In this document: positions 19,284 to 46,327 of the stretch, one piece after another | Numbering within the stretch: the first letter of the stretch is position 1 | Layout of the letters: the number at the start of each line of letters is the position of its first letter | Origin: Polytrichum commune | Lineage: Eukaryota; Streptophyta; Polytrichopsida; Polytrichales; Polytrichaceae | Assembly (NCBI GenBank): GCA_950295325.1 | Contig: OX485807.1 | Location: 1,798,501 to 1,862,500, forward strand | DNA length: 64,000 nucleotides | Direction: 5' to 3' | Position numbers and translations under genes: made by a program | The notes under the pieces: generated by a model | The model's database searches: none | Told to the model about the DNA's origin: nothing | The model's input: the letters and a program-made list of their open reading frames with translations, nothing else

Positions 19284-19318
19284 CTGGGTCCACAAAGTGA
19301 ACGGAGTTCGATGATTGG
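19284..19318 (-). promoter_or_regulatory. Conserved LHCII promoter module, copy 2
   Basis: CCAATC, 19 bases, then GTGGACCCAG on the gene strand, 141-175 bp before the ATG. ATAAGAACATCC follows at 19234-19223. The same arrangement recurs in five other copies. Confidence 0.75.
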
Positions 19319-19439
19319 GTGCACTTACCGGAAATCCCTTAAAGTGACAACATATCTTTTGCGGATAAGGTACTGGATAGTATTTCAAAATAGTACAGAG
19401 AATCTCTAGCTCCATCTACTACAGGAGCATAAATACCTT

Positions 19440-21427
19440 TCATCTGGATACAGTCCATCCAGGTACAAACAACTCAATTTCCACATGTCCTACATCACTT
19501 ATATGAATGATTAAATTAGCAACTGTGGGTGAAAATGTGCGCACATTTGAATTTGCCAACGTCAAGATACTTTTCTCAGAGACAGTGAGTTCGAAGTAAT
19601 AATCTATCGAACCAGCTCAGGATAATGGCTTGACGGACTTGCTAAGTTTGAGGCATTTGCATCTACAATTTGAAGTTTCGGGTCATTCTTTGGTATCTGA
19701 GCATGCGCGGATTGATTGGCGTGATACAAAATCTGCTGATTTATTGTGTGCGCAATCTGTGCCCTACTGAGACACGAACACACAAAGAATCAGTTGCAGC
19801 GTTGTTATGCGCTTCGTTTCTTCTAGCTTTCGCATTCTTAAATGCTGGGAAAGTATAGATGTTCTTGAGGCCAGAGCTGAGATTTGGAATCCAGTGTGTC
19901 ATCATATGAGAATTTTTATTCGATTGAAGTGGCGTATTTAACAAGGTTTCGATTTCATGTGGAAATAACATCGACTAAAAATTTAGTTATCTACAATATT
20001 ATAGTGAATCTTGGGGACTCTGAAAACGGAAGTTTGCAATGGACTTCAAATTGATGATCCTTAGTGGTTCCTTTGGACTCTATTGATTCTTAGGAATATG
20101 GAGCGGATATAGGAAAGATTGAGGGAACTCGCATGATCAGAAACAACGAGTTACTCGCAAGCCAACAGTAATTGAAAAAATTAATAATGAAACAGTTTTA
20201 AAAGCCAAAGTTCGAAATTAAAGAATTATTTTTCCAAACTCCCCCTTGGACATGGTATACGTGATTTCCTAGTCCCAGATACATAGAGTATGTTGATCCA
20301 ACTTTTGTAGTTGTGGGCCCCCTCCTATACGATCTCTAAGCTTGAAAAGAAAATTGAAGCCATTTCAGCACAAAAGCAATCACACTCATGTCAGGATTTG
20401 TTGGACACCTCCTCGGTGCCAAGCATATTCCAAACATCCTGTTTTGTCGAATAGGATTGGGTTGCACACTTTGTATCAAGTGGTCCAAAACCAAGTGCTC
20501 GATGATACTTCTGCATATCTGTAGGACGTACAGTGAAGATCGAGTGTTTGATGCAAAGGAGATTCTAGTACTTGATTCTTGTGTCCTCGAACTCGTACGA
20601 GGAGGAAATAATTGTCCACTTCTGGTTACCTGTAGTTACTCACCTGGACCCTGGGGGACAAATCTGCCCCTGTGCATGTTGTAAAACACCGAAGACGAAC
20701 TATCGTAACATGGATTCTAAAGATTTTGATGACAGATGGCAAGCAGAGGGGTCACAATCAACCATTAGGTCTGGTTGCTGCGTGGGGATAGAAAACTGCC
20801 TCAAAGTCTGCTTGAAGACAACTCAAAATCTTGCAAGAGAATGCATACTCATTTCCTTGACCTAATCTTTCGATAATATAATGAGTGACGTTTCACCTTC
20901 TGGATAAATATCATACGGAAGAGAAACATCCTTGGTTTGTGCCATGACATAATGGACATCAGGCACTAATGCACAACGGTCTCATGTTCTCTACATCCGC
21001 AGTTAGTTTTATTTCACATGCATATAGAACTTTTCTAATGGCAAAAGCCAGGGCTAAGCTTTGCCTTCATAGTGTGAACACATTGAAGAGGAGTCAACTG
21101 CAGGTTCCACTGCAAAATTCATCGACGAAAGGCAATATATATGACGGGAAAACAGCACTGCCACAGGTCGCTGTCCAGAAAAATTAGCACTTGATCAATT
21201 TCTAGAGGACTCCGTGTCAATGGATATTGCAATTCACAACCACCTCAACAATTCAGATTCCTTAAAACAGCTGAGTTTATTTTGACAGCCAGGGTAGTAG
21301 AACACTCCCCGGAAGTTGACAGATTGCGAAATTGCAAGTGCACAGCAGTTCTAAAGACTTGTGATGAAAGTCACATTGCCTATTCTCTACAAGAACTCTG
21401 TGGTTGTTTCATGGATTCTTTCAAGAG
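19440..21427. other. Intergenic between LHCII copies 2 and 3; no gene recognised
   Basis: Mixed-composition sequence with short random frames only. The right part (~21.35-21.45 kb) is the 3' flank of copy 3 and resembles the flank of copy 2 (shared TTTCATGGATTCTTTCAAGA). Confidence 0.5.
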
Positions 21428-21530
21428 AATCTCCACAACCTCTCGAACACTACTACACATTCTCAATCAATTAACCCTATGCAGATAGGATATTCTTCAC
21501 CTCTCTATTCCTCAACCATAGACCTGCTCT

Positions 21531-22619
21531 CTAGTTCCCGGGAACAAAGTTGGTGGCGTATGCCCAGGCGTTGTTGGCCACGGGGTCAGCCAAGTGGTCG
21601 TTCAAGTTCTCCAATGGTCCCTTTCCGGTCACAATGGCCTGCACGAAGAACCCGAACATCGAGAACATCGCCAATCGCCCGTTCTTGATCTCCTTCACCT
21701 TCAACTCAGCGAATGTGTCGGGGTCGTCAGCCAATCCCAAGGGGTCGAATGAGCCTCCTGGGTAGATGGGGTCCGTCACATCGCCCAAAGGTCCTCCGGC
21801 AACACGGTATCCCTCCACGGCTCCCATCAAGATCACCTGGCAAGCCCAGATGGCCAGGATGCTCTGAGCGTGGACGAGGTTGGGGTTGCCCAAGTAGTCC
21901 AAACCGCCATCGCTGAAGATCTGAGCTCCGGCCTTGAACCACACAGCTTCACCGAACTTGGTGCCGCTCTTGGCCAACAACTCGGGGGTCAAACATCCCA
22001 AAGCTCCGAGCATGGCCCAGCGAGCATGGATGACCTCGAGCTCCCTGTTCCTGGCGAAGGTCTCGGGGTCGGAGGAGAGTCCAGCGGTGTCCCATCCGTA
22101 GTCTCCAGCGAACTCACCATTCAAGTATGAGGGGGTCTCTCCGGAGAAAGGGCCCAACCACTTGGGTCTGTCTGCTCCGTACCTGCAAAATTCAATGTTA
22201 GGCGACAAATTTCAGAGAGAATTTACTAAATTCAGTGCCATTTTATACACAACTTAATCAGGAACGGATTGTCCGTTGTTCCGCTACTCTATTATAATAA
22301 AGTCTGAACGGAATGAGACTTCTTCGAAGTGACAAACTAAGTACTATTTAATCACAAGATTTCGCTAGAGAGAAACCTATTTTACTTCACTGTTGATTTG
22401 CAAAAACAGATTTGTCCACACCCACGTGTAAATTTCAATGCAACAGAGAATTCAGGTGAAGGTGTACCAGATGCTATCGCTGCTTGCGGACTTGCTGGCC
22501 GACTTGCGCATTGTGACGCGGGCCTCGCTGGTGCCCACCCTGCTAGCGAGCTCATTGCTCTGCTTCAACAGAGACTGGCCGGCCAAGGCAGTGGAAGCAC
22601 ATGCGGTAGCGGCCGCCAT
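21531..22619 (-). CDS. LHCBM: Major LHCII chlorophyll a/b-binding protein, copy 3
   Basis: Exon 1 is 22619-22468 and exon 2 is 22182-21531; the 285-bp intron is the shortest of the set. The product is 267 residues with stop TAG. The N-terminus is the second type ([20 protein letters not shown], then ASSDSIW). Exon 2 differs from copy 1 mainly by Asn for Ser at 152 (NPNLVHAQ). The donor after exon 1 reads GTACAC, unlike GTCAGT or GTGAGT in the other copies. The promoter module is at 22848-22815. The 3' UTR element is at 21443-21428, 88-103 bp after the stop. The reading frame is intact; splicing efficiency is the only doubt. Confidence 0.95.
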
Positions 22620-22814
22620 AGCTGCACTGCTTGAAGAACGGGCTGTAATACTACAAACAAGATTAGTATTGAAGAAAGAAGTTGCTCTGCTTGTCTGTAC
22701 GAGAACAATGAAGGGCTTTATTTTGCAACTGAGATCGCTATTGAGTGTGATGAGTAGCAATCACTTTTGGAAGACAGGAAATCTGGTGACCAATGAGACG
22801 GTTGGGTAATTCCA

Positions 22815-22848
22815 CTGGGTCCACAAGTGAGAGGAGCTCGGCGATTGG
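22815..22848 (-). promoter_or_regulatory. Conserved LHCII promoter module, copy 3
   Basis: CCAATC, 18 bases, then GTGGACCCAG, 196-229 bp before the ATG. Copies 3 and 4 share a further CCAACCG.CTCA.TGG just downstream and have AATAAAGC or ATAAAAGC TATA-like sequences instead of ATAAGAAC. Confidence 0.7.
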
Positions 22849-23889
22849 ACTCTGCGTGATCCTTGATTTTTCGATTTGCAGATAGAAAAGCAGATACTAA
22901 CTGTAGATACCAATGATATTGAACTATCCTGGGTGGGCCGGTTTCGTACAGGAAAGAAGTTTCTAAAAGTATTCACAATATTGACTATTGTGCCTCGTTT
23001 TTACTATGATAAGACATTTGTGGAAAATAGTCTACATGACGTTGTTGACGTTGTGTAATTTCAAACAAAAATAAAGAATATATTGCAAATTTAAGGAGTA
23101 AAAACGTTATTAGAAAAATTGACGCGTTGTAAGTCATATTTATAAACCACTAGGGCTAGATCCCGAAAATCTCATAAGAGTCCTTGTAAATTCACAAATT
23201 AATCTTTGCAAATTTTTTGAGACAGCTCTATATGTCAAATGTGTATATGCAGCTAGCTTGTGGTTTGCGTGCATTTTTGACAATTTTTTAATTTTTTTTT
23301 GACATTTGACATGCAAAGACTTACACACCAAAAAAATGCACATCAATCGATAGGCATAATGTAGGATTTGACGTGTAGTGTGACCTGTCAAAAAAGAATA
23401 TGCACATTAATTGACACATCATAAATTGAAATGACACATACTACCAGGCAACCAAAAATGAGATGGCATCTTAAAACAAAATGTAAATGACACTGACATT
23501 CATTTTGGTATTGCAAACATCAGGTGACACTTTGTATAAAAAGGTGAACATCAATTGTCAACACAGCTTTGGCCGAAACCCTGAACCTCCCCCCCCCCCA
23601 AATGTTTCTAGTTTTTTTTTTCCACTCCTTTGAGCCAAGGTGCCTTCACAAGAAATGAAAATCTTCAGGAATGTCGACAACAAATCACATGGAAACAACC
23701 CTCAACAGAGTTGCTCAAATACAAATTTTCTTCTTCATCTATTCATATAATTCACACACCTACATGAGCAGGGAAGATTGAGTCGCATCCCAGTTTACAT
23801 CAATGCTACTACTTAAAGGTCAAGGAGATCTCTCCCCCGGGACTTGTGCCCAAGAACTTGCACATTATGCTATGCAATACGCTACAGCC
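22849..23889. other. Intergenic; no gene recognised
   Basis: AT-rich, with a C-run at ~23591-23599. From 23.2 to 23.5 kb TTGACA/TGTCAA-type motifs recur, without a definable repeat unit. Confidence 0.45.
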
Positions 23890-24994
23890 TTACGTGTTCT
23901 TCGACCTCAAACGCTTTAATCTCAGACATACCAACAGAATGAACAATGCAAATAAGAAACCTCCAGTGGCAACGAGACTGATGCCTGCGACAGTTTGTGG
24001 CTTCAGACCTGGAGAATTAGAGGGCGTGGAATTGCCGGGAGTGGGAGCCGGTGAGGGATTAGGACTTGGAGGGGGAGGAGGAGTAAAATCTGTGCTAAAT
24101 TGCCAGTCGTGGATAATATGCGATCCTGCACACCCATCGTGAGTTGATCCAGAAAAACCTACATACAAATGATCAATACGAGAGAACACTTGGGTCAAAT
24201 CTACCGTGAACGATATGGCGAAATTGGACTTCGGCCCCGTGTGGAGAGTTGCAGTAAGACCGTTAGAATTGCCGTTGTAGTCTACGAGCAGGGTAATTGT
24301 TTTATTGGAAACGTCGGCGTGGAGTGCGTTATTGCAATGCGTTGCACAATCAACTAAGTTTTTTCCCGTCGCACATATTGATGGTTCTATTGGAGCTATG
24401 CTCCATGCTATTAACGAGGGCAGCCAAGTGGCAGGAACTATTGTCATTGAATCCAGTCTCGGCGTTGCGATATGTGTCAATCTCAATGGCAAAAACGTGA
24501 TTTCCCGGGTCTCCGTTGTTGTTTGTGCTGTTGAGGATTCCCAAGTAGCCCTTGCTGTCCCAACCTGGATTGTAGATGTTGCCAGATATTATGAAAGCCA
24601 TGCCATCACCCAGTGGACAGGAATTATTTCGCCCTTGGGCAACGGAGAGGCTGGCATAGGTGCTGAAGGAAGCAAAACTACTGTTTGTGGCAGTATCCTG
24701 CAACTGAACTGAGTTTATGTAAAACGCTCTTCCAGAACTTGCGCTGTTGGAGTTGATCCCGTTGTTGTTCAAGATAAGCTTGCCATTGGTGATAATAACA
24801 TCATCCTTCTTGACAATAGTACTCTGGTTCCCATCTGTGAAGTTTGAGGCGAATGAAAAAACAGGCTGCATCCCGCTTGCTAATACGACTACGCAGTATG
24901 AAGAAGAGACGTACAAGAGACATGCACAGATTAATCTCCATAGCAGTCCTATTGAGCCAGGCTGCAGGCGACCTGCAGACCTTGAAGTAGACAT
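23890..24994 (-). pseudogene. L-type (legume-like) lectin-domain membrane protein with a one-base frameshift
   Basis: The gene runs 24994-23890 without introns, about 367 residues if the frame were continuous. The order is: hydrophobic signal segment (~15-40); legume-lectin beta-sandwich with GDGMAFIISG, the metal-site pattern FAIEIDTYRNAE and a following NDNSS; several N-glycosylation sites; a Pro-rich linker (TPPPPPSPNPSPAPTPG); one membrane helix (VAGISLVATGGFLFALFILL); and a short basic tail (LKRLRSKNT). It resembles the extracellular part of lectin receptor kinases without the kinase, so it should bind carbohydrate at the cell surface. The reading frame shifts by +1 at a run of six A (gene strand) at 24364-24359; one base fewer would make it continuous. 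The shift may be a real mutation or a homopolymer sequencing error. Confidence 0.85.
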
Positions 24995-27900
24995 GGTTCC
25001 TCCTGCTGCTGATCTCGCCGTCTACTATAACAAAAGGTACATGGAAGTTGCCAAGCGAAGTCTCCTGTGAACACCAAAAACTATGATGCAAGGTATTATA
25101 TTGATAGTGAGCCACTGCATATTGTGTCACTAGTGTTCGGATCATCACAAACATATGTGTATTCTAAAGGATGTAGTCAGAGGCCATTCAGATTTCGTTC
25201 TTGGTTTCAACCGATTGGTTTTCATCAGATACCGATAGGAAGTTTCTCCGACGATATTTCACAAAGAATATTGACGAACTTTGTTACCCGCTCGAGCAAC
25301 CTTTGAACTCAGACCGCTATCTCAATCTCTTACAACTACCTCAACCGCTCAGCCCTAACCCTCCTCGTCACAACCTACTTATCATTTCATTAAGTCGACA
25401 ACTTACACTCCTTCACAGAACAAAGTTTATTGCAATATCCTCTAGTTGGATCAATCCACCTCCTTTTCTCTTTCTGATCTCCCACACACACAGGCTCTCA
25501 ATTGCGTTCACAACCATCTGTAGGAGAAGACAGTGCCGCTCAAAACAAAGTCCGAAGCAGTGAGAAGAACTCCAGATGGCAGAGAATCGTCAGAAACTCA
25601 ATCGGTAGCCGAACCCTCGGTGCAATAATTGTTCACCGATTGTCGGTAGGCCTGGAAGTCGTCCCCGACTCCCCGTTGTACAAGTTGCAGAGATTTGTCG
25701 GCCAAGCGGCCGGAGAATGAGTACATATATCGGGCGTTTTTTTTAACAATGTATGAATTTGATAGTCGTGAGAATGGGATATTTAAATGTAAAATATATT
25801 ATATTAAAAGTTGCCACTTGTTGAGTCAGTGACACACTCTTCAGGACGTGTTGGATGTCCCCTTTTCGAGGCTTCAACTGAAGTTCACTTTTTGTAACCA
25901 GGACCCAGGCGGTGTTTGTACTTACAGTTTCAGCCTATGGAGTTACAGAAGTCTGTCTGTGCAGTGGAATTTGAAGCACCTCTTGTGCTTGTTTGATGGT
26001 GAAAACAGGGGGGTTCTACAATAGTATGTTGGATTTTGTGATTGATGTTGCACAATGCACACTAGGTCAAACTTTTGTGACAGAGTGAGCCTGTGACTTC
26101 ATCCATTAAGTCTCCAACTACTAAATTCTCCATACCCTACCTATTCTCTGGAATGCCTCTATCCCAGAAAACAGCAAGAAATAAGAGAACTGGTGGACTT
26201 CAATGTACAACACCAAACACAAAATCCAATATAAAAATATAGAGTTTCCACTACTGTAGTGTCCGGGAGATTTTGAACAAAATCAGTTGAGATCCAAGTA
26301 TTTCCAATTCCAACCAGTTGCATATTGATATCCTTCGGTTTTCCTTTTATTAATTTAAGGTGTATTCTGTAGATTCCTCTCAAATGATGGATGATTTGCC
26401 TAAAGTCTTGGACTTCAACTTGGTGATTTCTCAAACTCAACTGGCTCATCTGAAACTAGCGGTCGGTTCTCCGTGGCTCTATACCCTATACCCCATCAGA
26501 GTGATTCCTTAAATTGCCTCTATATTAGAAAACAGAAAGAAGCAAGAGAAGTTATGGACTTTGATATTGGACCTGAGTTTTAAAATAAGGTCTATGTCTA
26601 ATTTGTTCCATACGATCCAACAAAGGGTAATGTTTAATAATACAGAATCAATGTTTTGTACAAAACATGAATTACTGTGGACTGAAAATATAATATGAAT
26701 ATTATACCCAAACACCAATATTTTGTGAACATGTAACCATTTTAATTTTTGGATATTAATAGTTTATTGATTTTAAGCCACTTTAATTTTCAACCCAAAT
26801 TGTCATAAAATAAAATGGGTCATAGTATTTGCTACCCATGCTAACTTTCAGCCCACAATAAGTGTGAATTTGGATATAGGTCCCGACGGGTGAACATTCA
26901 CAACACCTAAGTTTGATGAGAGGGGATGGTGAAAACACTTATTATTATTTAATATTTTATTTCGTAGTTTATATTAAATAAAATTAATTCTTAAATTGTG
27001 GTCGAAGACCCTGAATGAATCCTACAATGAGCTTATATTAGAATGAATTAACAACAAAATTGTAGGAGGCATGCTATTACTTTTCCCCCACTCTAGATTT
27101 TGTGAAATGAAATCCGGTCTCAACTAGAAGAATGTGCCCACTATTATGTAAAATAGTATTGGTTAGTTAAGGGATCCCTAAAATATTTTAGATGCTTATA
27201 TTCGCATTTTTACCATGAGCAAGGGGAGGCTTCCACGACACGAACGAGAAGTATTCGCGGAAGATCCGCATCTCATGTTCAGATGGAAGCAGAAAGCAAA
27301 GTGGTCTTGAGTTAGCTGGTTGCATTCGGGATTGCCAGTACTTTTGAGATGACCTAGCTTGTCAAATGCTCACGTTCATATTATTGCAACTTATGTACTT
27401 GTCAGGAGAATGGAACAACGTGATGCAACGGTTGCGACCACACACATTAAATACTTGATTTTGAAGTGGTAACCCAAGGGCCTCGACCGTCTTTGGCAAA
27501 AGCAGTTTTGCTTTTGTGTACACGAATACATGGTGTGGAGATACAGATGGATTGAAGAGATTTCGGGGAGATTTCGAGCAGATGTCCAGAGATGCAAAGT
27601 GCACTGCAAACAGATGACACAGCTTCTCCAAGAATCTATATGGAAAGTGAGAGGAAGAATCTTCCTTGGAACCCCAGGTAAGTAAGCTGGTCCTGTAAAG
27701 TTACCACCGCATTGTAGCCTCTTGGGAGATGCTTACTAAGCGACGTTGCGAGGAGAAATCGATTAAATGCGGCTATGTGCTTAAGAAGATAACAAAATTG
27801 ATCTTTTGTGATTCATGCAGCACCCTGCACTGCCATTCCCACACCTCGCCTGAGCTGGCTATGAGAAAATTTGTGATGAGGCCGCTTATAAGATCTTTTT

Positions 27901-28312
27901 AATTCCTTCATGTGATGGGTGTTGGACAATTCCACTGCACGGACAGTGCATTTCACTCTCTCCAAGCGTACATGGACCCTATGTCTAAATTCAGGACACA
28001 TCTTCCACAACAGGATGGCGTTAAATGTCGGACACAAAAGTATTGCGAAGAAACTAATAAATAACGGCTCAGCATAACATGTCCAGTGAACAATGTGTCC
28101 AAAATCCAGACCCAATTACCACGAACATTAGCATTCCAAGCCATTTTATCTACTCATATTTTCAGAAACTAATATCTTTATTATAAGAAACACGTCATTA
28201 CTATTACAGCCAGATTTATAACCATGGCTTGCGCAAAAAAATTAATAATACCCGCAAAAGATACCAAACCTTAAAAAGGGCCCTGTCATTATTTGCTGAT
28301 ATTTCCCAGCTC
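24995..28312. other. Intergenic between lectin gene and LHCII copy 4; no gene recognised
   Basis: Two related stretches at ~26148 and ~26515 share CCTCTAT...AGAAAACAG.AAGAA..AAGAGAA, a diverged repeat pair about 370 bp apart. Elsewhere only short random frames occur. Confidence 0.45.
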
Positions 28313-28414
28313 AATCTCCTCCAAAACCTCTATAAATATTCTACACGGACGATTTTGTCCCAAAACCTTTACATTACAAGACTGCTGACTGCTCAGACGA
28401 CATCCACACTCCGT

Positions 28415-29646
28415 TTAATTCCCGGGGACGAAGTTGGTGGCGTATGCCCAGGCGTTGTTGGCCACGGGGTCAGCCAAATGGTCGTTCAAGTTCTCCAATG
28501 GTCCCTTTCCGGTCACGATGGCCTGCACGAAGAACCCGAACATCGAGAACATCGCCAATCGCCCGTTCTTGATCTCCTTCACCTTCAACTCAGCGAATGT
28601 GTCGGGGTCGTCAGCCAATCCCAAGGGGTCGAATGAGCCTCCGGGGTAGATGGGGTCCGTCACATCGCCCAAAGGTCCTCCGGCAACACGGTACCCCTCC
28701 ACGGCTCCCATCAAGATCACCTGGCAAGCCCAGATGGCCAAGATGCTCTGAGCGTGGACGAGGTTGGGGTTGCCCAAATAGTCCAAACCGCCATCGCTGA
28801 AGATCTGAGCTCCCGCCTTGAACCACACAGCCTCACCGAACTTGGTGCCGCTCTTGGCCAACAACTCGGGGGTCAAACATCCCAAAGCTCCGAGCATGGC
28901 CCAGCGAGCGTGGATGACCTCGAGCTCCCTGTTCCTGGCGAAGGTCTCGGGGTCGGAGGAGAGTCCAGCGGTGTCCCATCCGTAGTCTCCAGCGAACTCA
29001 CCATTCAAGTATGAGGGGGTCTCTCCGGAGAAGGGGCCCAACCACTTGGGTCTGTCTGCACCGTACCTGCATAGACAAATTCGCATATCAGCTCACACAC
29101 CAAGTGTTTCAAGGCAACTCTAAACAAATCGAAGCACAATCGAGAATCCCTAGAGGCAAGTGGAACCTACTCCGCACGTGGCATTGAGACTATCGCAGCA
29201 ATGGAGGTCCACTAGGCCATTACTTTAAATAAGCCAATCCATTGCAGAGAACGTCTCTTCAAGAGTACGGATGCAGAAGTAGGGGTCCGGGTAATGGCTA
29301 GACCATAACCAACTTCCGAATGCACTCAAAACTTCTCCACTTACTTACATGTGCTCTAATTGTCCTTACACTGAATACGAAGGATGATACAGAACCGCTC
29401 AATTTACCCAGAGATGTAGCAGAGAGCATAGAATATTAGCCCCAAGTCCCAGGAGCCGACCACAACTTACTCAGAATCAACCAAAAGTGGTGTATGTGAA
29501 ACTCACCAGATGCTGTCGCTGCTCTGAGACTTGCGCATGGTCACACGGGCCTCGCTGGTACCCACCTTGCGAGCGAGCTCATTGCTCTGCTTCAATAGAG
29601 ACTGTCCAGCCAAGGTGGTAGACGCACAGGCGGTAGCGGCGGCCAT
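28415..29646 (-). CDS. LHCBM: Major LHCII chlorophyll a/b-binding protein, copy 4 (shortened N-terminus)
   Basis: Exon 1 is 29646-29507 (140 bp, 12 bp shorter than most) and exon 2 is 29066-28415; the 440-bp intron starts GTGAGT. The product is 263 residues with stop TAA. The N-terminus is the second type ([11 protein letters not shown]), but MRKS is followed directly by QSSDSIW: four residues are missing between the phosphorylation region and the trimerisation motif. The transit peptide has STTLAG rather than STALAG. Exon 2 carries Asn152-equivalent, as in copy 3. The promoter module is at 29849-29815. The 3' UTR element is a longer variant, AGAGGTTTTGGAGGAGATT, at 28331-28313. The frame is intact, so it is probably functional with an altered stromal N-terminus. 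Confidence 0.95.
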
Positions 29647-29814
29647 GGCTGCAAGCTATAGAACTGAATGTCCTCTGGCACTGAATTCAGTCGAGGAAAA
29701 TTGCTCACTTGAGGAGGAGATGACGAAGGCGGGAGCTTTTATGATTGCAAGAGTGGATGTTGAAACTCGCGATCGAACGACAGAATTGTGTTGACCAGTG
29801 AGGCGGTTGGATTA

Positions 29815-29849
29815 CTGGGCCCACGAGTGAGCGAACGACTGGCGATTGG
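29815..29849 (-). promoter_or_regulatory. Conserved LHCII promoter module, copy 4
   Basis: CCAATC, 19 bases, then GTGGGCCCAG (one change), 169-203 bp before the ATG. Confidence 0.65.
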
Positions 29850-32263: not shown

Positions 32264-32361
32264 GTCTCTTTGAAGACATTTGATAAAAATGGAATGATAT
32301 AGAGAAGATTAGCATGGCCCTTGCCAAAGGATGACATGCATAAATTGAGAAATGGTCCAAA
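32264..32361 (+). pseudogene. U6 snRNA retropseudogene
   Basis: The sequence follows U6 over its whole length: a 5' stem-loop (GTCTCTTTGAAGACATT), the conserved GAGAAGATTAGCATGGCCC, GGATGACATGCATAAATTG and the 3' end GAGAAATGGTCCAA. Most differences I recall from functional U6 are C-to-T changes, several at CpG sites (for example ACGATACAG became ATGATATAG). The 3' end continues into an A-run rather than the T-run that terminates pol III. The plant upstream sequence element (TCCCACATCG) is not seen. This fits a reverse-transcribed, methylated and decayed copy. Confidence 0.85.
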
Positions 32362-32699
32362 AAAATGTCCTCTTTTTGGCAACTAGAATTGAGTGACATT
32401 CAGGTAGGGCAATGTGAGCCCGAAATCGTACTCACATTAATCCTTAATCGCAAAAAACATGGCTAACACGTCGATTTCATGGTTGATAGAACTAGTAGGT
32501 GATGGGAAAGGTAAGGTGTTAAATATCTCGGTGGAATTAGGCTAAAAATAAATAAAAATGATTAGGAACTTGGAGAGAAATTAACCTTAGGGGACTAAAG
32601 GGGAATAAGGCATAAGCGTTTCATGGGGAGTCTAGTAAAAGCATGCTTAAAAGGACCAAGAAAAACCAATAGAATAAGAGGAGGGGGTCATGACGATGA

Positions 32700-33000: not shown

Positions 33001-33027
33001 TATCTATCTATCTATCTATCTATCTAT
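33001..33027. repeat. (CTAT)n microsatellite
   Basis: Six to seven TATC/CTAT tetranucleotides in a row. Confidence 0.9.
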
Positions 33028-33039
33028 GAATTTTATTTA

Positions 33040-35430: not shown

Positions 35431-35439
35431 AAATTTATG

Positions 35440-35830
35440 TCAATATCCCAAATCCTAAGTCCCAAGTCACTTGAGGTTAATCTATGCAATCTCAGCTGTT
35501 GAGAGCATGGAAGTTAGGACTTACCACTTCATACGCCAGGGTCCCAAGTCCTAAGTCCCAAGTATGACAAGGATACCTACATAGCAACACTTTTTGGAGG
35601 TGAGGCTTGAGACTTGTGTTAAGAATTAGATCGAGCAAAAAGATAGATCCAATCTTAACATAAGTCCCACAAATATTTTTGCATAAAATAATCAAGATCC
35701 GACTTTAATGATAATTAACTATACTTTAATAGTTTCTTATTGCTCAAAAGTTGGGACCTTGCCTCCATGTTGGGACTTGCTAACATGAGTGGGACTTGGG
35801 AGCCCATGTGAACCGGCCCTTGGTGAACAA
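35440..35830. repeat. AAGTCCC-rich repeat segment
   Basis: CCTAAGTCCCAAGT or close variants occur at ~35453 and ~35549, AAGTCCC at ~35663, and the inverse GGGACTT at ~35781 and ~35803. Inverted copies at the two ends suggest a small non-autonomous element, but no clean terminal repeat is defined. Confidence 0.35.
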
Positions 35831-37762
35831 AGACCATGACTATAGGTGTAGTAGCACAGAATATTTTGATAACAGTCTACCAACGTCTCGGATCCAATGA
35901 ACGGGGAGCACCGAACTTTAGTTACGAGCTAGCTGAAATTTTTTGGAGATTTCCGAATGAGTTTGCAATGATTCGGACGAGGTATCGACTTAAAATTATT
36001 AAGGTCGGAAAATTGACCGGTTCAAATGAGAAAAGATCGGCAATATAGCCGGTTGAGGCATCATATTTTAGGATATTTACCGAGCCAATTTTTAAATTTT
36101 AGGCAAGTAGCCGAAGGGACTAGGGATAGGGCGGAAATTTTTACTAGGGTAATACTAGAGTCATGACTCATAAGGTCAAGAACCATGGAGGCTAATTAAT
36201 TTAGGGTTGGTTCCGTTCATTGGGCCGATTAGGGTTTTGAGGCTCTAAGCACCCAAGGACCCTCTCTCACGAGTATAAGGAGTTTGAGTCCTCTGTGCAA
36301 AGTATCTCACTCCTCTCACTCCTCTACTGGGATTTCTCTCTGTGCTCTTTCGCTACTACTCTTCCGCTTCTGTTTGTTTTTGCATCCACCTGCAGCGATC
36401 CACTTGCGATCTAGTTGGAGACATCTGTTTCGGAGGTCCAGTTCAAAGGTCCAGTTCGGAGGTTAGGGACTCCATAATCATCAGGTTCGAACTCACTCCA
36501 ATTCGGTGCATCTTGCGCTCAGTTTTTCGATCCTCTGAAGTTTAATTGCCCCCCTGCAGTGATTTGTGTGCTTCGGGATCCAGGTATATCATATACCAAC
36601 TGTCTCAATCATACAAGAACATTGTGTCATTTGCGCAAGTAGCTAGCGATTGTAGATAGTTGCCCGGTGATGAAGCTAGTATTGTTCGATGTAATTTATA
36701 GATGGTCATAGATCACATTCTGCAGCATTGCGGGGTTTTGAGCAGGAAATGTCCTAAGGTGGAAGGACAGGTTATACCCTTGATTAATTTGCAGCCCAAT
36801 CATTTCACTATGTACTATGCGAAGAACTACACTTCAGGAGTCGATCGGTATCCATCTAGGGTCGCAGTGATTTTCAACATTCTTCAGCAGTTCGGAGTGC
36901 CACTTGTAATCAAATACCAACTTGCTGCCTCTTCATGACTGGTGAGTTTACGAAGATCGATCAGTCGCCTAGTTTTCCACAGAAATATCAGATGCAAGTT
37001 TATGGCTACTCATCAGTGATGATGAGTAGTTAATTGACAAGGTTTTAAGATATTTACCGAGTCAAATACCGGTTTTTATATGCTAATCCTTCACGTTATG
37101 TGTCTTCTGCAAGTGATGCATCTTGTTCAGTAAGTTCAATTATGTTTTCTAATTCCGAGGATACGGATGTTTAAAAGTTGCATGTATTGTTGTACTAACT
37201 AGCCTCTAAATAATGTATGAACCCTTTTTAAATTTATATATATTTTTAAAGGCTAAATCCTTGGCCCCAAGTTGGTGGGGGCTTGGCAAGGTTCAAATCC
37301 TTCCAAGGATACCTGGATTTTCTATCAACACAAATTCACCTCTTTAAAAGCATAACACCAATTTTTTTTTACAATATTTAAAAAAACAAATCCGACATAA
37401 AATACAAATCTTCGGAAACATACCGAAATGAAATTCAGAAAGTCAGAAAATTACCGAATGGTAAAGTTAAATATCGGTTTTTAACCGAGAATAAAAATTG
37501 GATTTAGGTAGCTTCCGAGTAAAAAAATAAAAATCCGAATGTCTTTATAAAAGACCGGAAATGTACCCATTTTTGTATAAAACTCCCCGAACTGTGCTCG
37601 GATCGAAGAGATTCGCCAAGGTAACAAAGTATAACATCCCATTCACAGTTTACGGAGAATGTCGAGGCAACGAGTAAATCATGAGCAACAGATAAAGTTC
37701 CAATCCAGATTTCTATCCGCAATGCAAAATTTGTCTCGATGTGGGATTCGCGGGAAGTGCAC
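35831..37762. other. Intergenic upstream of LHCII copy 5; no gene recognised
   Basis: ATTTACCGAG and ACCGGTTT-type phrases recur near 36.05, 37.05 and 37.45-37.55 kb, hinting at one diverged dispersed repeat. At ~37292-37320 AAGGTTCAAATCCTTCC resembles a pol III B box (another possible SINE scrap). No protein is recognised. Confidence 0.4.
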
Positions 37763-37796
37763 CCAATCACCATCCCCGTGCACTGTGTGGACGCAG
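37763..37796 (+). promoter_or_regulatory. Conserved LHCII promoter module, copy 5
   Basis: CCAATC, 18 bases, then GTGGACGCAG (one change), 154-187 bp before the ATG. ATAAGAACGTCC follows at 37847-37858. Confidence 0.7.
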
Positions 37797-37949
37797 TTGG
37801 TCGAAATTCAGATTTTCTCCGATCAGTCAAGTTCACTGCTCTCCTAATAAGAACGTCCTCACCATCATTCGTCTTAACCTAATTTTTCCATCGCCATCTT
37901 CACACTTTGATCTGTAGCGAAGAGTTCATCTCATAGTTCAGTAGTAGCC

Positions 37950-39229
37950 ATGGCCGCCGCTACCGCATGCGCATCCACTGCCTTGGCAGGCCAGAGCTTG
38001 CTAAGGGAGAGCAATGAGCTCGCACGCAAAGTGGGCGCCAGCGAGGCCCGTGTGACCATGCGCAAGACCGCCGGCAAGTCTGCCAGCAGCGACAGCATCT
38101 GGTGAGTATGACTTGTGTAGAGCTTATTTCACTCTGTGAAGAGTCCAGCTCAGTAGGCGATTGCAGTTTCGTATTATTGGAATGTGTGGAGGTCAAATTT
38201 CGATGTGGTATTGTAGCGTGTCAGTTTTGGATTAGAATTTGCAATTAGCCTGTTGATAAGTTTGGAAGTAGTATACCGATCGCCATCAGTACACATTCCG
38301 TGATTTCGCATGTGCACACTTTAAATCTAAAATGATAGTGTGAACCTATTTCATACTTTGCATCTGCCCTTCTGGTCGACCATGTGATCACCGTTACGTC
38401 GAGGGCACAATGTATGGGGCCACTTTGACCTAAATGCATTGTATCTTCCAGCCACTCAGTGCGACACGCTGAGAAGTCTACAATAACCTCACAGTATTAC
38501 ACAGTCTCATAACAGTATATGCGTACTTCTATGCAAAGTTCCCGCCCTTTATGATGTGTGATTTTTTGGCTGTGCAGGTACGGTGCAGACCGACCCAAGT
38601 GGTTGGGCCCCTTCTCCGGAGAGACCCCCTCGTACTTGAACGGTGAGTTCGCTGGAGACTACGGATGGGACACCGCTGGACTCTCATCCGACCCCGAGAC
38701 CTTCGCCAGGAATAGGGAGCTCGAGGTCATCCACGCTCGCTGGGCCATGCTCGGAGCTTTGGGATGTTTGACCCCAGAGTTGTTGGCCAAGAGCGGCACC
38801 AAGTTCGGTGAAGCTGTGTGGTTTAAGGCCGGAGCTCAGATCTTCAGCGATGGAGGTTTGGACTACTTGGGCAACCCCAGCCTCGTCCACGCTCAGAGCA
38901 TCTTGGCCATCTGGGCTTGCCAGGTGATCTTGATGGGAGCCGTTGAGGGCTACCGTGTTGCCGGAGGGCCCTTGGGCGATGTGACGGACCCCATCTACCC
39001 CGGAGGCTCATTCGACCCCTTGGGATTGGCTGACGACCCCGACACATTCGCGGAGTTGAAGGTGAAGGAGATCAAGAACGGGCGACTGGCGATGTTCTCG
39101 ATGTTCGGGTTCTTCGTGCAGGCCATCGTGACCGGAAAGGGACCATTGGAGAACTTGAACGACCATTTGGCTGACCCCGTGGCCAACAACGCCTGGGCGT
39201 ACGCCACCAACTTTGTTCCCGGGAACTAG
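37950..39229 (+). CDS. LHCBM: Major LHCII chlorophyll a/b-binding protein, copy 5 (Thr-type N-terminus)
   Basis: Exons 37950-38101 and 38578-39229; the 476-bp intron starts GTGAGT. The product is 267 residues with stop TAG. The N-terminus is the second type ([20 protein letters not shown], then ASSDSIW). It is the only copy with RKT rather than RKS at the predicted phosphorylation position. Exon 2 and the 3' flank for about 900 bp resemble copies 6 and 7, not copies 3 and 4, so the gene looks like a mosaic. The 3' UTR element is at 39293-39308, 64-79 bp after the stop. Confidence 0.97.
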
Positions 39230-39308
39230 ATGAAATGGTTGCGTGTCTGAACAGTCAGTGAGCAGGAGAAAGATTCTATGTAGAACTTCTCTAGAGGTTG
39301 TGGAGATT

Positions 39309-40223
39309 AGTGAAAGTCAATGAGGCAATCTCGGAGTACTGGTTGAAAGAGGGCCATTATTTGCCATGAATCATCTGTTGTGGCAGCTAGTTGTTATTGT
39401 AAGTATTGTGACATTTGATCGTGAAACGTGTTTACTCATAAGAAGGTTTTGCAATTACCGACTCCGGGCCGACTAATAAATGTTGTTGTTGCAAAGAAGC
39501 AACCTGGCTGAAGTGGCTCTGCAAACAGAACTGTGATCAATCTTAATCCGTAATTTGCTGGTCTGTAATTAATGGCCTTCGTTCCCCAGTCTTTATGGGA
39601 TAAGATGTGTGTTTGGTCCACTGTTTTGGTCTAGAATTTTACCCTATGCCTTGCAGTTGTGGTTTTGGTCAAGCCTGCAACTGGAACTGGCGCTTATTCA
39701 GTATTCGCGACTCGTTTTTGAACTGTAACCAAGCTAAAATGTAGAGAAGCCAGGCAAATCTGATACGCTGTGACTGTTTTGTTCGATGTCCTTCCTGAAT
39801 AGGGTTCAAGTATAGGAACAATAAGGACGGAGAGGGGAGGATGTTGAGATAGAATGCTTATATGTGGGTTGTGTATGTGCATACGTGTCTCGGAAATCTT
39901 GCATTCCTGTTGAGTGGGTATAGTTTTGGTCTCTAGCTATATGTTATTGATGATGATAATGACAATGAGATGACCATCTGCTTGCTGGCTTGGGATTAGA
40001 CTGGCAGGCTTCACATTAACCTAGAGGAGATAGATCACGGAACGTGGGTGCGATAGGTAATTCATTCTCAATAAATGTTTTGGGACACACAAGACGATCT
40101 ACCCTCACAGTGCTTGCATGGCACTGCAAGTGAATATGCCACCCAGAAGCATATGTGGCAGCGGAGAAAAAACTGAGGGCAAGGCCACTCACCCTGCATC
40201 CGCATCTGCATCTGCACTTTTAC
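39309..40223. other. 3' flank of LHCII copy 5, shared with copies 6 and 7
   Basis: Recognisably homologous to the flank of copy 6 up to ~40160 (matches 44392-45340), for example the AGCAACCTGG and CACACAAG.C regions. No gene is present. Confidence 0.6.
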
Positions 40224-40503
40224 ATCCGCGATGCAGATGCAGATGCAGGGAAGTGCCCCACTCACACTGGCATAACTGAAATTTGGATGAAGAAATTTGG
40301 GGGAGGTGCAGAACTCCCTGCATTTCCTTGAGTTATGCAGGGAGCCTGCTATCAACTAAAAGAATCCGCGATGCAGATGCAGATGCAGGGAAGTGCCCCA
40401 CTCACACTGGCATAACTGAAATTTGGATGAAGAAATTTGGGGGAGGTGCAGAACTCCCTGCATTTCCTTGAGTTATGCAGGGAGCCTGCTATCAACTAAA
40501 AGA
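40224..40503. repeat. Perfect 140-bp tandem duplication
   Basis: 40224-40363 and 40364-40503 are identical by eye. The unit contains GATGCAGATGCAGATGCAGG, whose inverse lies just upstream (~40190-40216), giving a long imperfect hairpin. Perfect identity implies a very recent duplication or an assembly duplication. Confidence 0.9.
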
Positions 40504-40559
40504 CAAAGAACCGGTTGAGAGAAATTACCGGTTGAGGCTTGGGGTTCATGAAACTTACC

Positions 40560-41250
40560 CTTCACGTACACATGAACTGCTTGAGGGTAAACCAGGATAT
40601 AATTATATTCACGTGCACATTACGGATGAGTTTGAGAAATAACCGGTTGAACCGGTTGAGGTTTAGGGTAAACCATGAGATAATTCTAGTTACGTGCAAA
40701 TTACGGATAAGTTTGAGAAATAATCGGTTAAGGTTTAGGGTAAACCAGGAGATAATTATATTCACGTGCACATTACTGATGAGTTTGAGAAATAACCGGT
40801 TGAGATTTAGGGTAAACCAGGTGATAATTATATTCACGTGCAAATTGGGGATGAGTTTGAGAAATAACCGGTTGAGGTTTAGGGTAAACCAGGAGATAAT
40901 TATATTCACGTGCACATTATGGATGAGCTTGAGAACTAACCAGCTGAACCGGTTGAGGTTTAGGGTAAACCAGGAGATAATTATATTCATGTGCAAATTA
41001 GGGATGAGTTTGAGAAATAACCGGTTGAGGTTTAGGGTAAACCAGGAGATAATTATATTCACATGCAAATTACGGATGAGCTTGAGAAATAACCGGTTGA
41101 GGTTTAGGGTAACCCAGGAAATAATTATAGTTACGCATGAAGCATGGATGAGCTTGAAAATAACTAGTTATAGTTTAGGGTAAACCAGGAAAGAAATACT
41201 ACTTACACATGAAGCACATATGAGTTTGAGAACTAACCGGTTGAACTTCA
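40560..41250. repeat. 72-bp minisatellite, about nine units
   Basis: GGTAAACC anchors start at 40586, 40667, 40739, 40811, 40883, 40964, 41036, 41108 and (as GGTAAACC again) 41179. Spacing is 72 bp, with 81 bp twice where the 9-bp AACCGGTTG-type piece is doubled, and 71 bp for the last. Units contain the perfect foldback GGTTTAGGGTAAACC (embedding plant telomere-like TTTAGGG), the palindrome AACCGGTT and, in most units, CACGTG or a variant. Because nearly all steps are multiples of three, long open frames run on both strands (214 and 168 codons). I regard these as by-products and not genes. Confidence 0.9.
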
Positions 41251-41499
41251 TGACTTCGGAAAACTACAAATCATTTTAGAGGGAATTCTGATGAAAGCAA
41301 TGCAGAATGAGTGGCAGTTTTGCCTGGGTCTGCATCTGCATTCTGGATGGAGGCCACTTTTCATTCCCGGATGCAAATGCAGATCCAGGAACGATTGGGC
41401 TTGCTTTGAAGCAAGAGTTTTAACTCAAATTAGCCGCGTAACCTACAATTTAGTTAAGTGTGTGGCCATTGGAAAGAGATTATGAACAGTAATTTGTGT

Positions 41500-41880
41500 T
41501 AAGGATTAAATGAATTGAATTTGATCTTAAAGTCTAGGAAGCTAAAGGCTTATGGGATTGAAAGTATATTGGGATGGTTTCCAACCAGGTAATTTCGTAC
41601 AGTGGAGGAGTGTGGTATCCTCCGTGAATAGCGGCTAGTGTCAACTTGGTGGTCCAATTGAAAGAAAGACTTGAGGCTTCCAAATAATACATTCTCAATA
41701 GTGATGGAAATTTATCTCTCATGGGATTATATAAGGGACACTCAAACTCAACATGTCTCATTTTAATCCGCATTATACGAGCAAAAGTTACATAATCTAC
41801 AATCTCTAGAGATAGGGACACTTGACCACCGTCTAATTTCAATGAGAAGTCTATGATTTGAGGTGCGGTAAGCAACAATG
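41500..41880. repeat. Dispersed repeat, copy A
   Basis: Shares phrases in the same order with 57.41-58.1 kb: AATTGAAT...TTTAAAG.C...GGCT.ATGGGA, then GTGGTA.CCTCCGTGA, then GGTCCAATTGAAAGAAAGAC. Probably part of an unidentified retroelement, decayed. Confidence 0.55.
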
Positions 41881-42848
41881 ATCTTGCATTCTTGTGGTGT
41901 CAATGGTTGCTTCAAGTACAACTCATATTACTATTTGAGAAAATCCAATGAAATTTTTCATGGGGGGCATCTTATTTATTCTAAGCATTGCATGTCTTAT
42001 CTCTGCAAAAGCTGGAACTAAGTAGTAAATATAACTCTGTTTTAGTCAAGAGTCTCACCATTACTTTATCAGTGCACTTATAAACCCATCGGCCAGGGTA
42101 TCCTAATGAACTCATTCAGGATGTCAAGGAACACATTGCTCCATTGACTACGATTACACCTCAGTGCATTCAGCAATTGTAGAGAAGTACCAACCAGAAA
42201 CTCCTGTTAGGAAAATGAGGTCGAGAAATCCTGTTTGGTGATATTTTCTTCAACTAAACATTATTGTTGAGTTCATGCTATTCTGGATTTTATTATCCAG
42301 ATGATTGCCTGACCATTATGCCTCCCAGCATAGATGGAAAGAATTGCTACAAGACACATCAAGAAGAGCATTTAACGACATTGCAATTCCTGCAACGGAT
42401 TCTTTTTCAAATCTCATAAATCGCCAGACTGTAGTTACATTTTTGCCTTCAGAGATGGGTGTACTGGTGTAACCCCATTATCTACTCAGATAGTAAACTC
42501 TGAAACGATACCAGTCTGTCGCTTATTGTGCACGTTCACAAAAGCTATACCTACCCTAGCACTGGCACGGACTCTCGCACAGTTTACAAGTTCTCATGTG
42601 TACTTTATGGATGAACGACGTGAAGGGTCTTGGATTTCGGAGGCAGAGAGCTATCCAAGTCTAATGAGATTCCAATTTCGCCAGTGTCTATTGTCCTGGA
42701 CAAAATTTCCTCTCATGGACATTTGTCGTTACCCAGGTGTGGACCAGCGACTTGCAGTACATGCAGTAAGTTTCAAAATCTGGAATTCTATCTTCATTCT
42801 GGATTTCATTCTGATAGGTGTGTTGATATTTCCCGGGAACCAGCGCAA
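41881..42848. other. Upstream region of LHCII copy 6
   Basis: From ~42170 onward it is homologous to the upstream region of copy 7 (from ~45650), for example GAGAAGTACC.ACCAGAA and CAGTGTCTATTG.CCTGGAC. No gene. Confidence 0.55.
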
Positions 42849-42883
42849 CCAATCACCGACCTCAATGCACTTAGTGGACCCAG
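42849..42883 (+). promoter_or_regulatory. Conserved LHCII promoter module, copy 6
   Basis: CCAATC, 19 bases, then GTGGACCCAG, 162-196 bp before the ATG. A second CCAATC follows at ~42892, and ATAAGAACATCC at 42941-42952. Confidence 0.75.
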
Positions 42884-43044
42884 TTCTTCTGCCAATCGGA
42901 TGTTTGATTTCTTCTTGAGTCTCACAGTTCTCCACAGTGAATAAGAACATCCACATCGCAGCACACTTTGAATTAGTGGCAGGCTCCTCACCGTCTTCAG
43001 CATAACCTGTAGCAGTGGGATTTCGATTCTCAGTCATTGCAGCC

Positions 43045-44313
43045 ATGGCCGCCGCTATCGCATGCGCCTCTACTGCCCTGACAGGCCAAAGTCTGCTCAG
43101 GCAGGGAAACGAGCTCGTCAGCAATGTCAACCTCGGCGAGGCCCGCGTCACCATGCGCAAGTCTGCCAGCAAATCCGCCGCCAGCGGCAGCATCTGGTCA
43201 GCGCTCAGCACTTGGATTACGTTCTCCTTACTCCCAGTTGTTTCTTTTCTGTCTAACGCTTGAAATTCTGGTGAGCTCTGGTGTAGCGTGGAATACTGAG
43301 TCGGTATCCGTTTCTCTACTTAGGTGCTAGATAGAGCTGTGTTTGGGTTTGGGTTCGTCATTTTTGTCACCATTATCCACACTACACGTTAGTAAAGGAT
43401 TCCTTTCTGCGATGCGTGCAACATAAGGAATAGAGGCGACACTTATGACATTTGTTTCCTGCTCGGCCGTATGGTTTTTGTGAAAACCTTAATAGCCTGC
43501 TCAGGCGTATGCGTTCAGGGCATACACGGGCACTTTGGGTAACGGTAGCTCTGTAGCCATGTCGACCTGGGACCCAGCGCCACAACGAAAACCGTGCGTA
43601 GTTCGTCAGTCAAGAGCTTGGTCACAATTAGGAGAGCTAAACACGGAATTTGGCTGTACAGGTACGGTGCAGACAGACCCAAGTGGTTGGGCCCCTTCTC
43701 CGGAGAGACCCCCTCGTACTTGAACGGTGAGTTCGCTGGAGACTACGGATGGGACACCGCTGGACTCTCATCCGACCCCGAGACCTTCGCCAGGAACAGG
43801 GAGCTCGAGGTCATCCACGCTCGCTGGGCCATGCTCGGAGCTTTGGGATGTTTGACCCCAGAGTTGTTGGCCAAGAGCGGCACCAAGTTCGGTGAGGCTG
43901 TGTGGTTCAAGGCCGGAGCTCAGATCTTCAGCGATGGAGGTTTGGACTACTTGGGCAATCCCAGCCTCGTCCACGCTCAGAGCATCTTGGCCATCTGGGC
44001 TTGCCAGGTGATCTTGATGGGTGCCGTTGAGGGGTACCGTGTTGCCGGAGGGCCCTTGGGCGATGTGACGGACCCCATCTACCCCGGAGGCTCATTCGAC
44101 CCCTTGGGTTTGGCTGACGACCCCGACACATTCGCTGAGTTGAAGGTAAAGGAGATCAAGAACGGGCGACTGGCGATGTTCTCGATGTTCGGGTTCTTCG
44201 TGCAGGCCATCGTGACCGGAAAGGGACCATTGGAGAACTTGAACGACCATTTGGCTGACCCCGTGGCCAACAACGCCTGGGCATACGCCACCAACTTCGT
44301 TCCCGGGAATTAA
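43045..44313 (+). CDS. LHCBM: Major LHCII chlorophyll a/b-binding protein, copy 6
   Basis: Exons 43045-43196 and 43662-44313; the 465-bp intron starts GTCAGC. The product is 267 residues with stop TAA. The N-terminus reads [19 protein letters not shown], then AASGSIW, with small transit-peptide changes ([21 protein letters not shown]) relative to copy 1. The intron ends resemble copies 1 and 7. The 3' UTR matches copy 7 almost base for base. It contains the element at 44377-44392, which can form the stem TCTCCA/TGGAGA. Confidence 0.97.
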
Positions 44314-44392
44314 ATCAAATGGTTATGGGTCTTAACAGTCAGTGAGCAGGAGAAAGATTCTTTCGAGAACTTCTCCAGAGGTTGTGGAGATT

Positions 44393-46292
44393 AGTGAAAG
44401 TCAATGAGGCAATCTCGGAGTACTGGTTGAGAGAGAGCCATTATTTGCCATGAATCGTCTTTTGTGGCAGCTAGTTGTTGATTGTAAGTAGTGTGACATT
44501 TGACTGTGAAACGTGTTTACCCTCAACAAGGTTATGCTATTAACGGCTCCTGGTCCACTAATAAATGTTGTTGCAAAGAAGCAACCTGGTTGAATGGGCT
44601 TTGCAAACAGAACTGTGATCATTCTCAATGCGTCACCTGATTGGCAACTTATGGCTTGTTCCTTCGTCTTAGTGAGAATGTGAATGTCTTTTTCACTGTT
44701 CTAGCATGGAATTATTCACCTATAACTTGTGGTTATGCTGATGATCGCGGCTTCAAATAGAATTGACTATTGTCCAGAAGTGTAAATATATTTGACGTTG
44801 GTTGAATTAACATCACGATGGGAAGAGAAACTCAACCTTAAATGTACAGGTCAGATGAATCTGAGTTTCTTTAATTTTGTATTGTACTTCAATTACCGAA
44901 TAGTGCACTAATTTCAAAGAGTAGTAACAAGAAGGACGAAAAATAGGATGACGTTAAGAGATGGTGCCTTTAAAGCGCTTGTCCATTGTCTTACATGTTC
45001 TTGGGAAATATCGCTTTCCTGTCGTGTGGACAGTTATCTGGTACGCAGCTATATGACAAGCTGATGATTAATTTCCTACCTGCTGACCGACCGACCATCC
45101 TAAGCTACGAAGTTGAGTGTCAAGAAGTTGAGTTCCTTCGGAATATGTAGGCCTTCGGAATACATCGCCAGTTACAGGCTAGAGCAAGTAGATGATAAAA
45201 TGTAGGTGCGATGTGTGTAATTAATTCACGTCAAACATTGTAGTGGGTCACACAAGGCATGAAAGCACTCTCAAAGTGGTTGTATAACAATGCAGGTGAT
45301 GCAGTCACCCCGAAGCATCTGACGTAGTGTAGTCATAATTGGAGCAGCTTCATCTTGTATCTACGTAAGCAACAAATTTCCCGGGTGTGTTTGCCATTGC
45401 ACAATGATCGTGAAGAGAAATTTATTTAAGCAATGTAATTATAATGGAGGCCTCTGATGTCTTCCAAGCATGACATTGCCCAGGCTGTGCAAAGCGGGAA
45501 GTAGTAACTAGAACTGTAGTGTAGCCAAGAACATGAATGTCAGTTCGATTCTGAACTCATGTACAATGGACAAAGGTTCGTCGAGTTTTTCAAACACAGG
45601 TGAGGAGCCAAATTTATGATTAAACCTCAGTGGATTCATCACAAAGATCTTCATTTGTAGAGAAGTACCCACCAGAAGATCCTGTTAGGAAAACTGGGTA
45701 GAGAAATCTTGATTGGTGATTTGTTTCTACAGATGGCATGATTCTTGAGTTTATGTTGATTTGCTTCTCAATTGCCAGTCGATGCCCTGCGCATTATGTC
45801 TCCCGGAATTCATGGACTCAATTGCAACAAGACACAAGAAGAAGATAATAAGTTACAACGACATCGCAAGTTCTGAACGAATCTTTTGCAAATCTCATAA
45901 ATCCATAGAGTTTTCTTCGGGGATGGGTGTAACCCTGTTACTTACTCAGATAGTAAACTCTGAATAGTTATCAGCTGGTCGCTCGTCAGTGCACGGAGAA
46001 AAAACCTATATCTACCCGAGGATTGACTCTCTCATTTAATACTCTCATTGTGTATTCTGAATGGATGAAAGAAGTATAGGGTCTTGAGTGGGGGTTCAAT
46101 GTCGGAGGTAATTTCAGAGGGGTAGCCCAATTCCAATTGCAATCCAGCCAGTGTCTATTGGCCTGGACAAAATTCATTTCATATCATGAACATTTGTCGT
46201 TAGCCAGGTGTACGCTTGTCACCACGAGCGCTTATGCACTAATGATTCTGGAACTCTATCTTCAACCTGGATTTCACAAGGAACCAATGCAA
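44393..46292. other. Duplicated flank between LHCII copies 6 and 7
   Basis: The left part to ~45340 is homologous to the 3' flanks of copies 5 and 7; the right part from ~45650 to the upstream region of copy 6. This shows the tandem duplication unit is about 3.45 kb. No additional gene. Confidence 0.6.
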
Positions 46293-46327
46293 CCAATGAC
46301 CGATCTCAAACCACTCTGTGGACCCAG
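46293..46327 (+). promoter_or_regulatory. Conserved LHCII promoter module, copy 7
   Basis: CCAATG (one change), 19 bases, then GTGGACCCAG, 158-192 bp before the ATG. ATAAGAACATCC follows at 46382-46393. Confidence 0.75.

Follow-up and report, generated by a model that had tools for sequence, protein, structure and literature searches.

In the moss Polytrichum commune, a 64,000-nucleotide stretch of contig OX485807.1 (C5:1798501-1862500, hereafter the window, in a genome of 407.8 Mb and 64 contigs) carries seven LHCII genes, G1 to G7, six of which share a two-part promoter module made of CCAATC and, after a spacer of 18 or 19 base pairs (bp), GTGGACCCAG. Judged from comparisons of DNA sequence, this module is a real, LHCII-specific and selectively kept composite promoter unit. 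We consider it somewhat probable (about 0.55) that it is a core-proximal activator unit of the ancestral LHCII promoter, read by NF-Y or a GOLDEN2-like (GLK) factor together with a TCP protein. An initial annotation of the window had proposed a conserved two-part module in LHCII promoters, possibly a light-response module of mosses: its specificity and its standing above the genomic background were borne out, while its reach turned out to be limited to the LHCII family, with two of 14 array genes lacking it.

A two-part module at fixed spacing

The six positions given in the initial annotation are all correct (Table 1), and G1 (ATG at 6884) is indeed the only LHCII gene of the window without the module. 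The pattern CCAATC-N18/19-GTGGACCCAG, which had been attributed to all six genes, is exact in three of them, and each of the other three departs from it by one mismatch. The spacer, described as fixed, measures 18 bp in two copies and 19 bp in four; CACT, said to be usual at its end, stands directly before (N)GTGG in all six; and CCAAT begins 175-229 bp upstream of the ATG, in line with the proposed 140-230 bp.

The window holds one half of a larger array, since a protein search of the genome recovered 14 intact LHCII genes (full-length second exons) on C5, seven inside the window and seven (L001-L007, C5:1751661-1782593, all on the minus strand) immediately to its left; the same search found two further loci, L008 and L009, on C7, and a broken copy, L010. 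The contigs hit in the genome include seven large ones of chromosome size (C1-C7), a number reminiscent of mosses with n=7. Scored by leave-one-out with a two-block weight matrix, the module is strong in eight of the 14 array promoters (26.7-31.2), intermediate in two (L005, 19.8; L006, 17.0), weak in two (L003, 13.3; L002, 12.8) and absent from G1 and L001. The best matrix site falls at the same aligned place in all 12 promoters that have the module (G2-G7 and L002-L007). Because non-module scores reach 14.1 in the window and 17.7 at one of the 38 loci scanned, far upstream of an RbcS gene, the copies in L002, L003 and perhaps L006 are identified from the alignment and not from their scores. 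The spacer is 18 or 19 bp long in all 11 full-length copies.

The module lies above a second conserved block, (N)ATAAGAACATCC at best, which is likely a TATA or I-box element (ATAAR). In all 11 full-length copies this block stands 46-92 bp below the module and precedes the ATG by 77-110 bp. The spacer within the module is constant in length (18 or 19 bp) while the distance from module to ATAAR varies twofold.

Specificity and conservation beyond shared descent

The exact pattern CCAATCN{18,19}GTGGACCCAG has only three matches in the genome, all at LHCII genes of the window, and none in a reversed-pattern control; in the same way, the three exact copies of the window compare with none in 100 window shuffles, and these two zero counts rule out a chance origin of the module. 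When one mismatch was allowed, the N19 form gave 16 genome matches against two in the reversed control (six in the array, one on C1 in an LHCII-like promoter left orphan, three from copies of a single repeat and six others), and the N18 form gave five, two of them in the array, against five in the control. The loose pattern CCAATN{17,22}GTGGNCCCAG gave 28 matches against six; five of these belong to the array, one repeat accounts for 12 and another for three, and since the remaining eight are near the control level, this pattern is unspecific on its own. By the exact and one-mismatch counts, the strict form of the pair is thus specific to LHCII promoters, and looser forms stay at background level.

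The motif search upstream of other LHC genes that had been suggested was carried out in this genome. Besides the array and the C7 pair, 14 LHC loci were scanned (of 58 listed matches, with ELIP-like loci left out), and their upstream DNA, with start codons unmapped, held no strong module (best score 12.9, against 27-31 for strong copies). Neither did that of nine RbcS genes in 10 loci (of 19 listed matches, start codons again unmapped), where the best score was 17.7, about 1.2 kb upstream, and the next 14.5. Since the 17.7-bit match, at L030, exceeds the leave-one-out score of L006, single intermediate scores are indecisive. A general module for light-regulated genes is unsupported by the LHC and RbcS upstream DNA scanned; with the module missing in two of 14 array genes and decayed on C7 as well, it is not general to such genes.

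An alternative is that the promoters resemble each other passively, through recent duplication or conversion, and that the module has no function. Promoters of G6, G7 and L004, and those of G2, L005 and L006, are homologous over hundreds of bp, second exons are homogenised, promoters and gene bodies have been recombined (L007), and the module persists in an orphan promoter that has no LHC gene. We weighed this idea using local scores against shuffles (z > 5, homologous; z < 3, no residual homology) for the distal promoter (-600 to -280), intron 1 and the proximal promoter (-280 to ATG) of all 91 gene pairs; global pairwise identity with lenient gaps was uninformative, shuffles reaching 0.73 like most real pairs. 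Distal promoters are recognisably homologous in six of the 91 pairs and introns in 22, so that the earlier description of the flanks as diverged holds for most pairs and fails for G6/G7, whose distal promoters are clearly homologous (z 72.5). In 59 pairs neither intron 1 nor the distal promoter retains homology, yet 27 of these still match proximally: in 25 of these 27 pairs GTGGACC lies, for either gene, inside the best local match, and G2-G3, G3-G6 and G3-L004 match over the module and nowhere else. In addition, both half-sites would not escape a conversion tract that altered the spacer between them. We regard passive homology as largely refuted and improbable.

The conservation is also more than inherited similarity when looked at by position, both half-sites exceeding spacer and flanks. 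Among 35-column windows from -500 to ATG of the 12 aligned promoters, the module ranks first (0.60 against a median of 0.34), above the maxima of intron 1 (0.49), of -900 to -500 (0.40) and of 30 shuffles (0.36). L002, whose spacer is not full-length, was omitted from two further analyses of the other 11 copies. Without alignment, GTGGACCCAG is the top shared 10-mer of their proximal regions (90/100, against 75 distally and 73-75 in three shuffles), and column identity is 0.80 in CCAATC, 0.83 in GTGGACCCAG and 0.45 in the middle of the spacer; these values cover all 11 copies, whereas earlier half-site figures took seven representative ones (G7, L004, L006 and L007 dropped). In a MAFFT alignment that includes L002, 64 of 66 pairs are more alike in the module than in the flanks, the L002 values among them being meaningless as its module is misplaced there. 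Conserved half-sites around a spacer that is free in sequence and fixed in length are as expected of two protein sites whose geometry is fixed.

Traces of the module reach beyond the array. The C7 gene L009 matches G6, G7 and L004 (z 10.9, 7.7 and 6.0) just over the module stretch, where its homologue has decayed to CCAAAC and lost GTGG; the other LHCII gene of C7, L008, has no module homology (best z 1.1 against array promoters). Since L009 retains this decayed homologue, the unit seems to predate the split of the C5 and C7 LHCII loci and to have then decayed on C7.

Candidate proteins and competing readings

The second half-site, which had not been recognised in the initial annotation, fits GTGGNCCC, described in the literature as the consensus for class II TCP binding (Kosugi and Ohashi 2002, cited by PMC9335043), and is probably a TCP site. 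This consensus is intact in eight of the 12 module copies, the variable A/G falling on its N, and it occurs within 300 bp in eight of the 14 array promoters against 0.36 expected from shuffles. Our search of the genome recovered just two TCP genes, of which one resembles class II and the other class I: among solved structures, the PF03634 match at C3:42624336 hits TCP10 (E 5.7e-27) far better than TCP15 (2e-5), and the other gene, at C4:55336714, is closest to TCP15. We take the TCP10-like gene to be class II and the TCP15-like gene to be class I.

As for the first half-site, its sequence suits NF-Y and GLK equally. CCAAT is intact in nine of 12 copies and lies at the classical place, tens of bp above a TATA-like element, and the genome encodes an NF-YA protein (PF02045, two exon pieces at C7:2960400-2961291). 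A CCAAT-box is placed near -80 in one review (PMC10328392), and LEC1/NF-YB9 was reported to bind the LHCA1 and LHCB5 promoters in Arabidopsis (PMC5042435). The module departs from such a box in that its CCAAT is tied to a second site by the fixed spacer of 18/19 bp.

A rather doubtful alternative is that CCAATC is read by GLK instead of NF-Y, with TCP or an unknown partner at GTGGACCCAG, in which case the module would be less a general CCAAT box than an element for chloroplast biogenesis or plastid signals. CCAATC is a putative GLK-recognition element (Waters 2009, as cited in PMC5130987 and PMC4859062), although it is not paired with GTGGACC in the excerpts of those papers. In the LHC promoters studied here the CCAATC core is found in eight of 12 copies, the sixth base C being kept in eight of the nine with an intact CCAAT, while G7 has CCAATG, and CCAAT with a conserved C at base 9 suits NF-Y too. 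At C4:45829139 the genome encodes a GLK-like DNA-binding domain that shares 88% identity with the query sequence over 57 amino acids. RGATTCY is a GLK motif; within 110 bp upstream it is present in four of 12 genes against 0.7 expected in total, that is, in just a third of the genes.

CONSTANS-type complexes bind CCACA, the other strand of TGTGG. NF-Y at CCAAT could hence be joined by a CONSTANS-like/NF-YB/NF-YC complex, with no TCP involved; TGTGG occurs in eight of 12 copies, but the base before GTGG varies (T, C or A) and the conserved GACCCAG after it is left unexplained, and we hold this to be very improbable. It is even harder to credit that the module is a transcribed 5'-UTR (untranslated region) element acting on RNA: it does lie no more than 230 bp from the ATG and always on the sense strand, but the ATAAR block is conserved downstream of it, and both halves match known transcription factor consensuses.

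In the activator reading that we favour, the unit would have been copied along with LHCII genes and then maintained by selection, even as the DNA around it became saturated with changes. CCAAT would bind NF-Y, or CCAATC a GLK factor, and GTGGNCCC, about 25 bp downstream from start to start, would bind a TCP protein, the likeliest being the only one of class II (TCP10-like). Held in a fixed relation by the rigid spacer, both proteins would act on the ATAAR block and drive strong, coordinated expression of the array, possibly in response to light or plastid state.

Several observations weigh against this reading. The spacer of L002 is just 8 bp long; L002, L005 and L006 have no CCAAT; and the seventh base of GTGGNCCC varies in four of the 12 copies (G5, L003, L004 and L006), contrary to what is expected of a strict TCP site, while AG is conserved after it although the TCP consensus stops at CCC. 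The C7 LHCII pair, 97% identical in protein, does without an intact module. The orphan promoter on C1 (L021:1495-1529; C1:6218194-6218228) keeps 15 of 16 module bases, and its homology with G5, G6 and G2 extends past the module (about 70-75% over 70-140 bp), with no LHC match near it in genome-wide LHCII/LHC searches; it is either a sign of recent gene loss or a mild argument against strong constraint, and either a relic or a promoter now serving something else. The Arabidopsis line jaw-2D lacks CIN-TCPs. LHCB1.1, 2.1 and 2.4 are lower in line 6B and not in jaw-2D (PMC7187390), which leaves control of Lhcb by class II TCPs unsupported in Arabidopsis. The TCP4 site named in the PDB and used in assays (PMC7187390), GTGGTCCC, has T where module copies have A or G.

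Known light-responsive units of angiosperm Lhcb genes combine GATA repeats, CCAAT and an I-box/TATA. The moss promoters show a similar order, with an AGATAG block (presumably a GATA-type site) in eight of 12 genes, then CCAAT, then ATAAR; GTGGACCCAG between CCAAT and TATA is not known to be part of that scheme. AGATAG lies about 40-70 bp above the module, with 11 occurrences against 0.74 expected from 300 single-base shuffles, and because the genes are related in groups these are not eight independent cases. The Evening element AAATATCT and ACGTG cores are unenriched just upstream of the module (0 and 1 occurrences). A limited search of open-access literature returned no paper combining GTGGNCCC, TCP and light harvesting, none containing GTGGACCC among the papers listed and no dissection of a moss Lhcb promoter.

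The LHCII array and its implications

Table 1. Coordinates of LHCII genes and promoter elements in the window
Feature	Position	Strand	Remarks
G1 gene	6884..8182	+	two exons; without module
G1 proximal promoter, different type	6763..6780	+	inverted CCAAT (ATTGG) and GATAAG; no CCAATC-GTGGACC module
G2 gene	17681..19143	-	two exons
G2 module	19284..19318	-	CCAATC-N19-GTGGACCCAG, exact; leave-one-out score 31.2
G2 TATA/I-box-like element	19223..19234	-	ATAAGAACATCC; 91 bp before ATG; second conserved alignment block
G3 gene	21531..22619	-	two exons
G3 module	22815..22848	-	CCAATC-N18-GTGGACCCAG, exact; score 31.0
G3 ATAAA element	22710..22721	-	diverged form; 102 bp before ATG
G4 gene	28415..29646	-	two exons
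G4 module	29815..29849	-	CCAATC-N19-GTGGGCCCAG (GTGGGCCCAG at 29815-29824); one mismatch, GTGGNCCC intact; score 26.7
G4 ATAAA element	29731..29742	-	diverged form; 96 bp before ATG
G5 gene	37950..39229	+	two exons
G5 module	37763..37796	+	CCAATC-N18-GTGGACGCAG (GTGGACGCAG at 37787-37796); one mismatch, disrupting GTGGNCCC; score 31.0
G5 element	37847..37858	+	ATAAGAACGTCC; 103 bp before ATG
G6 gene	43045..44313	+	two exons
G6 module	42849..42883	+	CCAATC-N19-GTGGACCCAG, exact; score 29.2
G6 element	42941..42952	+	ATAAGAACATCC; 104 bp before ATG
G7 gene	46485..47762	+	two exons
G7 module	46293..46327	+	CCAATG-N19-GTGGACCCAG, one mismatch (CCAATG at 46293); score 29.0
G7 element	46382..46393	+	ATAAGAACATCC; 103 bp before ATG

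In each gene of the window the short first exon ends in SIW. Over a 627-nt stretch, the second exons of G1-G7 (17681-47762) differ by 8-25 nt, 4-13% at fourfold sites and 0-1 amino acid, unlike introns and promoters, which have mostly diverged past recognition; this pattern points to gene conversion restricted to the LHCII coding exon. L007 (C5:1782494-1784700) is a mosaic, with a proximal promoter of G4 type (z 45.8), no intron similarity to G4 (z -0.2) and an intron of the G1/G7/L001/L004 type (z 27-49). By these comparisons, new combinations of promoter and gene body have arisen within the array through reassortment. In the broken copy L010 (C5:1767650-1771600), exon 2 pieces are split by about 1.4 kb of other sequence and no exon 1 start is recognisable.

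The promoter of G1 is shared with L001 (proximal z 130), and these two genes form the outer ends of the known array. They define a second LHCII promoter class (G1, 6584-6883), which carries CCACGTCA, ATTGG and GATAAGA and is almost unchanged between both genes. Elsewhere in the window, a perfect 140-bp tandem duplication lies at 40224-40503, and a 72/153-bp spaced repeat array at 40581-41160 retains open reading frames, 214 codons long on the plus strand and 168 on the minus strand.

Antenna-gene promoter logic is poorly known outside seed plants, and the array offers a ready-made phylogenetic footprint, with 14 near-identical proteins behind otherwise diverged promoters. It is also a natural experiment, in which gene bodies of a single type are combined with three types of promoter: that of G1/L001 lacks the module, and those of G6/G7/L004 and of L007 have it. 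What is new is the pairing and its fixed spacing, either site alone being already known. We suggest, tentatively, that a rigid composite TCP and NF-Y (or GLK) site may have been an ancestral switch of LHCII antenna promoters in this lineage, older than the split between the C5 array and the C7 pair. If TCP binding were confirmed, the small TCP set of a bryophyte would be tied to LHCII expression, a tie unreported in the literature searched. If such an ancestral composite switch is real, antenna gene dose would be set directly by a growth regulator that is specific to plants and has very few genes here, two TCPs having been found, and cell proliferation or differentiation would be linked to light harvesting in a bryophyte.

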